The notes below the pieces were generated by a model. That model ran no database searches and was not told the DNA's origin. It saw nothing but the letters and a program-made list of their open reading frames with translations. A program made the translations under genes and the position numbers. A DNA stretch of 64,000 nucleotides from an uncultured Clostridia bacterium (GTDB lineage Bacteria; Bacillota; Clostridia; Oscillospirales; Acutalibacteraceae): NCBI GenBank assembly GCA_947170465.1, contig CAMVTS010000003.1:1-64000 (forward strand), given 5' to 3'. Below, in pieces: positions 21,479-58,961 of the stretch (position 1 is the first letter of the stretch; the number at the start of each line of letters is the position of its first letter).

Positions 21479-21746
21479 AGGCTGGCTCCAAGAGCCAGCC
21501 CCAGTTTGTCGAAAAACGAATATTTAAAAAAGAAAAATGGCAGAATTTTAGGTTATGCGGTAGGGGCGGACCCATGTGTCCGCCCGAGCTGCGTTTTCCT
21601 ATCTAACCATATCTGCCGTGGAAACGTACGGTTTCCTATCCCGGGCGCACACGCGGGTGCGCCCCTACGATTTTGTCATACTTTATCCTGTAAAAACAAC
21701 ATTTGGACTTTTTCTACAGTCTGAGGCTGGCTCCAAGAGCCAGCCC
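21479..21746. repeat. Terminator-duplicating repeat, family 1, copy 1 (element 21502-21723 plus flanking hairpin duplicates)
   Basis: AGGCTGGCTCCAAGAGCCAGCCC is present at 21479-21501 and again at 21724-21746; the ~222-bp segment between matches the segments at 32663-32884 and 40187-40405. Confidence 0.9.
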
Positions 21747-21782
21747 TTATTTTTTCAATTGCCGCCGTTTTCCAGGCGTTCA

Positions 21783-21939
21783 TACTAATTCCTGATAGAA
21801 AGTAGACTTATATTTTGCGAGGATATTTTTCGCAAGACAAGGCGAAGGACGCGGCAAGGCTGGCGCCTTGCAAGGACGACAACGCAGTATTGCGGAAAAT
21901 AGACCGCAAAGATTGTCTACTTTTTATTAGGTATTAGTA
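21783..21939. mobile_element. 157-bp MITE, family 2, copy A
   Basis: TIR TACTAATTCCTGATAGAAAGTAGAC / GTCTACTTTTTATTAGGTATTAGTA; 3-bp TSD TCA (21780-21782, 21940-21942). Confidence 0.9.
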
Positions 21940-22217
21940 TCAAGCGCCTGCCGGGCAGCTTTCTCGGTTTTGAAAAAATCTTCGACGCTTTTCTCCGGTT
22001 CTATGTAGACCCTCCGATTGTAATAGGAGGACTCTGCCCAGATACCGACACCCTGCTCTGTAAAACAGACCGACATCACCATCAGCTCGTCCAGTGCCGG
22101 ATTGCTGCCGTCAAGCGGCTGAATCACGCGCCAGACGGGTTTGCCAATCTGAAAGAACGACACCATGCGCTCCTTCGGCTCAATGCGGTAGAAGGAAATA
22201 TATTCCTGCTGTTTCAT
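21927..22217 (-). CDS. Hypothetical protein, C-terminus altered by MITE insertion
   Basis: 96 aa; last residues (..ALDTNT) read into the MITE end. Removing the MITE restores ..ALERLENGGN*. Confidence 0.6.
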   Translation of the reverse strand: MKQQEYISFYRIEPKERMVSFFQIGKPVWRVIQPLDGSNPALDELMVMSVCFTEQGVGIWAESSYYNRRVYIEPEKSVEDFFKTEKAARQALDTNT

Positions 22218-32619: not shown

Positions 32620-32635
32620 TAGTATCAGCGCAAAA

Positions 32636-32912
32636 CGGCTGCCGGAAATCCGGACAGCCGTTAGTTTGTCGAAAAACTATATTTGCAAAAAATAGAATGG
32701 CAAAATATTTGGTTCTGACGTAGGGGCGGACCCATGTGTCCGCCCGAGCTGCGTTTTCCTATCTAACCATATCTGCCGTGGAAACGTACGGTTTCCTATC
32801 CCGGGCGCACACGCGGGTGCGCCCCTACGATTTTGTCATACTTTATCCTGTAAAAACAACATTTAGACTTTTTATACAGTCTGTCGGCTGCCCGGAAATC
32901 CGGACAGCCGTT
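32636..32912. repeat. Terminator-duplicating repeat, family 1, copy 2
   Basis: CGGCTGCCGGAAATCCGGACAGCCGTT at 32636-32662 and CGGCTGCCCGGAAATCCGGACAGCCGTT at 32885-32912 flank the ~220-bp family-1 core. Confidence 0.9.
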
Positions 32913-40158: not shown

Positions 40159-40433
40159 AGAGGGTTTGGCACATAGCCGAACCCTCAGACTGTAGAAAAA
40201 GTCTAAATGTTGTTTTTACAGGATAAAGTATGACAAAATCGTAGGGGCGCACCCGCGTGTGCGCCCGGGATAGGAAACCGTACGTTTCCACGGCAGATAT
40301 GGTTAGATAGGAAAACGCAGCTCGGGCGGACACATGGGTCCGCCCCTACGTCAGAACCTAATATTTTGCCATTCTATTTTTTGCAAATATAGTTTTTCGA
40401 CAAACAGAGGGTTTGGCACATAGCCGAACCCTC
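40159..40433. repeat. Terminator-duplicating repeat, family 1, copy 3 (inverted orientation)
   Basis: AGAGGGTTTGGCACATAGCCGAACCCTC at 40159-40186 and again at 40406-40433 flank a 219-bp core in reverse orientation. Confidence 0.9.
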
Positions 40434-58486: not shown

Positions 58487-58961
58487 TTAAATGATAGATT
58501 GTATATCTCTTTTGCTGTACAGAAATCGTCTGACTTCCATCACATCATCAATGACAACATAAAAAACCGCGTAACTGTTGACGTTAATCCGATAATACGG
58601 AGATTTGCGCTCTCTTTCAGAATGGATTGGCTGAAAGGAAAGCGGATTATTCAAGCGCGCGAGAATGGCTTGTTCAGTCAAATCAATCAGTTTCACAGCC
58701 GCCGTCGGATTCTGTAATACTAATTCCTGATAGAAAGTAGACTTATATTTTGCGAGGATATTTTTCGCAAGACAAGGCGAAGGACGCAGCAAGGCTGGCG
58801 CCTTGCAAGGACGACAACGCAGTATTGTGGAAAATAGACCGCAAAGATTGGCTACTTTTTATTAGGTATTAGTATAAGTCCTTGGATATATAATCTACGA
58901 TTTTTGCCATATCCTCATAAAAAATCGGCAAATATCTCAGCTGATACATGCTGTTATCCAT
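58487..58961 (-). pseudogene. RelE/ParE-superfamily toxin gene split by a 157-bp MITE
   Basis: N-terminal part MDNSMYQLRYLPIFYEDMAKIVDYISKDL (58961-58875) and C-terminal part QNPTAAVKLIDLTEQAI...FLYSKRDIQSII (58714-58487) rejoin in frame when the MITE and one TTA duplicate are removed. Confidence 0.88.
58718..58874. mobile_element. 157-bp MITE, family 2, copy B
   Basis: Near-identical to 21783-21939, same length; 3-bp TSD TAA (58715-58717, 58875-58877). Confidence 0.92.

Follow-up and report, generated by a model that had tools for sequence, protein, structure and literature searches.

Mobile elements flanked by duplicated stem-loops point to an IS1182-family transposase that may read the shape of its target

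A 222-bp repeat in the genome of an uncultured Clostridia bacterium is, with a probability of roughly 0.8, a MITE moved in trans by an IS1182-family DDE transposase whose insertion would duplicate the whole target stem-loop. The flanks of this element and its relatives show that insertion is precise and duplicates a complete stem-loop from base to base, whatever its sequence or length. Targets are perfect or near-perfect stem-loops, in most cases intrinsic terminators, and the length of the duplication (18–38 bp) varies with the hairpin rather than being fixed by the enzyme. An exact copy of the hairpin left on each side indicates that the enzyme would recognize the shape of its target and not its sequence.

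The window, by which we mean the whole stretch of 64,000 nucleotides analysed here, holds three copies of the 222-bp core, each between convergent genes (Table 1). At copy 1, the hairpin AGGCTGGCTCCAAGAGCCAGCCC is repeated exactly on the far side of the core and is followed there by CTTATTTTTT; folded as single-stranded DNA, it reaches −10.8 kcal/mol (z = −4.2). Copies 2 and 3 stand between hairpins that differ in sequence from those of copy 1, and both the exact repeat and the two further loci are as the first-pass annotation had described them. The core has the features of a MITE: it is short, multicopy and without a transposase gene, and it has terminal inverted repeats and a target duplication. 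Its sole long open reading frame on the plus strand is a 96-amino-acid frame without known ends. About 12 near-full-length copies occur in the window's genome (2.9 Mb in 191 contigs, with many element copies at contig ends), and no copies of the MITE were found in the phage records searched.

Table 1. Positions of the three element copies and their flanking hairpins in the window
Feature	Position	Strand	Basis
Left duplicated terminator hairpin, copy 1, 23 bp	21479..21501		Exact direct repeat; DNA fold
MITE copy 1, 222 bp, probable non-autonomous IS1182-type	21502..21723	+	Multicopy; ends common to transposase-bearing IS1182-family elements
Left terminal inverted repeat CAGTTTGTCGAAAAA	21502..21516	+	Identical to IS left end in L127/L159
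Inner 109-bp GTAGGGGCG...CGCCCCTAC module	21560..21668		Independent repeat; alone or in other contexts in L013 and congeneric genomes
Right terminal inverted repeat TTTTTCTACAGTCTG	21709..21723	+	Within 18-bp motif found across genus
Right duplicated hairpin, copy 1, then T-tract	21724..21746		Exact repeat; scored terminator-like, + strand
Left hairpin, copy 2, 27 bp	32635..32661		Flank comparison
MITE copy 2, 93% identical	32662..32883	+	Core similarity
Right hairpin, copy 2, then TTTTT	32884..32911		Imperfect repeat of copy 2 left hairpin
Right-end hairpin, copy 3, 25 bp	40161..40185		Exact repeat
MITE copy 3, 94% identical	40186..40407	-	Core similarity
Left-end hairpin, copy 3, 25 bp	40408..40432		Exact repeat

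Duplicated hairpins flank every element with both ends recognizable in the window's genome (n = 25; 199–222, 270 and 437–439 bp), and each pair consists of two copies of a stem-loop peculiar to its locus. True flank pairs matched in 25/25 cases, compared with 0/600 pairs in which the flanks were swapped (lowest true score 11, highest swapped score 6), and this contrast rules out chance. The first-pass annotation had asked whether the flanks of other copies are direct repeats of a locus-specific hairpin, as they would be if the target duplication equals the hairpin; they are, without exception in this genome. By eye, the two hairpin copies at L002 and at L144 differ at stem positions where a change in one partner is matched by a change in the other, so that the bases still pair, as though selection or correction acted on the structure. 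At L006, L019 and L136, hairpins and elements alternate in arrays in which a further element lies directly behind a hairpin, and a duplicated hairpin seems to have been used again as a target.

The ends of the MITE lead to elements that carry a transposase. Among 100 genomes of the genus, 44 contain an 18-bp motif that includes the right terminal repeat (at most two mismatches), compared with few matches for a reversed control pattern. Two elements from congeneric genomes, each about 1.6 kb long, encode a transposase (L134:187-1784 and L127:3023-4653), the former with AGGGTGTCACCGAAGTGACACCCT on both flanks, and they score 470.8 and 422.8 bits, respectively, against the NCBIfam IS1182-family model NF033551 (cut-off 270), which is exceeded in 14 of the 100 genomes. 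An IS1634 profile gives these transposases only about 20 bits (cut-off 100). The relatives' transposases contain the Pfam DDE domains PF13751, PF05598 and PF01609, and in a six-member alignment D149, D299 and E426 are invariant, which we read as the catalytic triad. The window element ends in CAGTTTGTCGAAAAA and TTTTTCTACAGTCTG, the L127 element in CAGTTTGTCGAAAAA and TTTTTCTACAGCCTG, and the L222 element in CAGACTGTCGAAAAA and TTTTTCTACAGTCTG; the MITE also shares the end asymmetry of its autonomous relatives, with GTCGAAAAA on the left and TTTTTCTAC on the right. The full-length relative that the annotation had called for was thus found, with the same kind of ends and an IS1182-family DDE transposase. 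Within the window's genome itself we found no intact IS1182-family transposase gene, only a 187-amino-acid remnant, containing a stop, on contig C32. The assembly is so fragmented (191 contigs, with many of the element copies at contig ends) that a multicopy IS may have been lost from it. As a source, the remnant was rejected since matching ends are absent nearby, and a further transposase found with PF01609 (C5:48142-48906) was rejected as mobilizer because its ends differ.

Beyond this genome, public genomes and viral contigs were scanned with the six-member alignment, and plasmid and phage records supplied further cases. Both flanks were present for 67 distinct transposase-bearing elements with ends of the CAG type. 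In 52 of the 67 the flanks form a direct repeat 15 bp or longer; the repeats span 18–38 bp in all 52 (median 24), and almost every one is a complete stem-loop, symmetric about its axis. Only at L254 does the automatic repeat boundary run past its hairpin. Over the outermost six repeat positions, mirror pairing averages 5.54/6 on the axis compared with 1.6–2.3/6 when the axis is shifted by 1–4 bp. The palindrome is the sole feature common to the target sequences of duplicating elements; a T- or A-tract, as in terminators, accompanies 43 of the 52, and insertions show no orientation bias with respect to the T-tract (11 to 11). Among the 15 elements without a repeat, 14 abut two different complete hairpins, the outcome to be expected if copies had recombined or a repeat had been assembled chimerically, and several of these come from metagenome assemblies; the other, L256, has a 7-bp repeat only and no hairpin. 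Hairpins match in copies from complete genomes (L200-L202, L228, L239, L240 and L263). The flanks of the ISEfa7 plasmid copies L287-L289 and L334 do not match, having probably been altered by rearrangement, and for L285 the element limits were not drawn.

In a tree of 67 transposases, the hairpin elements form one group, split from ISCfr1-type elements with 100/100 support. The group is mostly from Bacillota and includes a member on a Providencia plasmid (L328) and one on a contig labelled Chloroflexota (L234), and on this evidence hairpin duplication runs through a deep clade. A subgroup with GGGGCTGTCGCA ends (L162-L168), in which a simple search did not find hairpin repeats, was left out of the tree.

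Unoccupied versions of three insertion sites record the state before insertion. In the linear plasmid pELF_AA94, ISEfa7 lies between two copies of AACGATGCCTATTTAGCATCGTT, and pELF_AA55, with one copy, is 100% identical to the joined flanks across 500 bp. Likewise, phage Javan87 carries an element and two copies of ACCGCTCTCTTAATCGAGGGCGGT, and phage Javan90 is 100% identical to the joined flanks with a single ACCGCTCTCTTAATCGAGGGCGGT. The third site, on the Acetobacterium wieringae chromosome, is occupied in DSM 1911 and empty, with one hairpin, in a metagenome-derived genome (85% identity). Each site thus has one hairpin when empty compared with two when occupied, and none of the three already held two. 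Together with the locus-specific flanks at 25/25 elements, hairpins standing without an element bear out the earlier proposal that the hairpin belongs to the target. A search for an empty site of the insertion in Streptococcus phage phiJH1301-3 found none. For the window copies, no empty site from the same species was found. Orthologues, in congeneric genomes, of the gene upstream of copy 1 lack the element at their 3′ ends, and several have there one terminator-like hairpin unrelated in sequence; they are too distant to serve as exact empty sites.

How one enzyme might duplicate targets of such different lengths can be pictured with a cruciform. The first-pass annotation had proposed that the enzyme cuts each strand at the foot of an extruded hairpin; cuts at these places fit the exact axial symmetry, and the extrusion itself we infer. 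A cruciform would be extruded from the target and its strands cut at the 5′ feet. The cut points, 18–38 bp apart in B-DNA, would then be adjacent at the four-way junction, and because the joints lie side by side there, one ordinary strand-transfer geometry would suit hairpins of any length; this neighbourhood of the joints would also be why duplication length varies and symmetry does not. Each strand's hairpin would remain with one flank, and gap repair would copy both to give hairpin–element–hairpin.

A related possibility, which we consider unlikely though not negligible, keeps the same family and outcome and makes the target a single-stranded hairpin at a replication fork or in a transcription bubble, with the second strand cut later. 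Terminators fold during transcription, the lagging strand forms hairpins, and the T- or A-tracts beside most targets agree with this; the lack of orientation bias relative to the T-tract speaks against it, as does the position of both duplication edges, precisely at the palindrome base, for which a symmetric four-way junction would account directly. The cuts might instead be a long stagger in ordinary duplex, with terminators merely tolerated and a stagger that happens to approximate hairpin length. Long target duplications do occur in other DDE elements, namely the IS1634/IS1549 and IS1202 groups, although we know of no hairpin duplication in either. A fixed stagger, however, would not track hairpin length, and with edges symmetric on the palindrome axis over the whole 18–38-bp range, axial symmetry refutes this account as a sole explanation and makes it highly improbable.

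Insertion between pre-existing tandem hairpins, or homologous recombination between similar terminators as the means of spread, could draw on the hairpin–element arrays and on the 14 elements with two different hairpins; with one hairpin at every empty site, and exact locus-specific duplication at 52 independent sites that requires no recombination, it is barely tenable. That the hairpins are part of the element, or were acquired at an earlier site and carried along, might be suggested by the hairpin abutting nearly every end and by several ISs that carry their own hairpin immediately within an end, but flanking hairpins are different at every locus and, at empty sites, the hairpin of the occupied site stands once with no element, which refutes this idea and leaves it a probability close to nil.

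Hairpin or terminator recognition is known from other bacterial mobile DNA that uses other enzymes (REP/RAYT, IS200/IS605, group IIC introns and integron attC), and to our knowledge none of these leaves a whole hairpin duplicated. An ISfinder-based review table reportedly gives IS1182 elements a wide range of target duplications, 0–60 bp, so ISfinder curators may have seen such repeats. Some IS1182 members have been remarked in the literature to target palindromes. The closest systems, IS1272 and TnSha1 of the IS1182 family, are reported to insert into stem-loops and delete all or part of them without target duplication, and duplication of a whole stem-loop was drawn by the IS1272 authors only as a hypothetical pathway (b, Fig. 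13) (PMC4923244, PMC5678879). They share with the elements described here the transposase family by name and a stem-loop target of no fixed sequence that is often a transcription terminator; in contrast to their deletion of the stem-loop, here the whole stem-loop is duplicated. IS1272-type replacement is not what the flanks record, with duplications at 52 of 67 elements and 25 of 25 MITEs and a change from one hairpin to two at the empty sites. In the full-text literature, with most subscription journals and ISfinder outside its scope, our search found no published report of whole-hairpin duplication.

By transposase tree and ends, ISEfa7, ISBspe1 and other named IS1182-family elements fall in the hairpin-duplicating clade; they carry a transposase, whereas the window element is a geneless 222-bp derivative. 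Elements of ISCfr1, Thioclava and Sinorhizobium, although annotated as IS1182 family or found by transposase similarity, have other ends and flanking repeats of at most 6 bp, and those of ISCfr1 and Thioclava form a clade apart from the hairpin duplicators. Elements L330-L332 have ends of the ATTCTGTTGAAAAAG and CTGTTGAAAAACTCG types; ISCfr1 is flanked by CGGCCG and a Sinorhizobium copy lies in the middle of GCGGATATCCGC, perhaps a different manner of exploiting palindromic targets.

Ordinarily the enzyme sets the length of a target duplication, and that length is constant. The duplications described here follow a structure of the target in their length, which is strong natural evidence of a transposase that reads DNA shape; they supply real cases for the pathway that had been hypothesized for IS1272 and allow stem-loop duplication to be compared with stem-loop deletion within one family. 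A possible reason for the abundance of such elements is also suggested: insertion occurs just past genes and leaves a hairpin and T-tract on the far side, so that the cost to the host may be small. Each insertion makes a second hairpin and therefore a new target, to judge by the arrays. For genome annotation, the hairpin-duplication signature offers a way to delimit these elements and their MITEs exactly in genomes.

Several neighbouring repeats are distinct from the mobilizing ends. An internal set of palindromes had been noted earlier as part of the core; it is present there, and the GTAGGGGCG...CGCCCCTAC block also occurs outside the 222-bp element and is a separate module, no part of the mobilizing ends. 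The module, which also stands in different surroundings in this genome (L013) and recurs in the congeneric genome G027 at 71–74% identity, has 27-bp arms that are 85% complementary and looks like an independent palindromic repeat family. A second element of 437–439 bp (L020, L021, L022, L026 and L136) also has duplicated hairpins on both sides; it has in common with the 222-bp MITE the right end only, that is, the final 52 bp of the core, which recurs at many further sites in the genome as the right end of the ~438-bp element. Adjoining the MITE is another repeat of about 159 bp (21782-21940 and 58717-58875, 98% identical), which shares about 70% identity with its own reverse complement and is probably a further palindromic repeat family.
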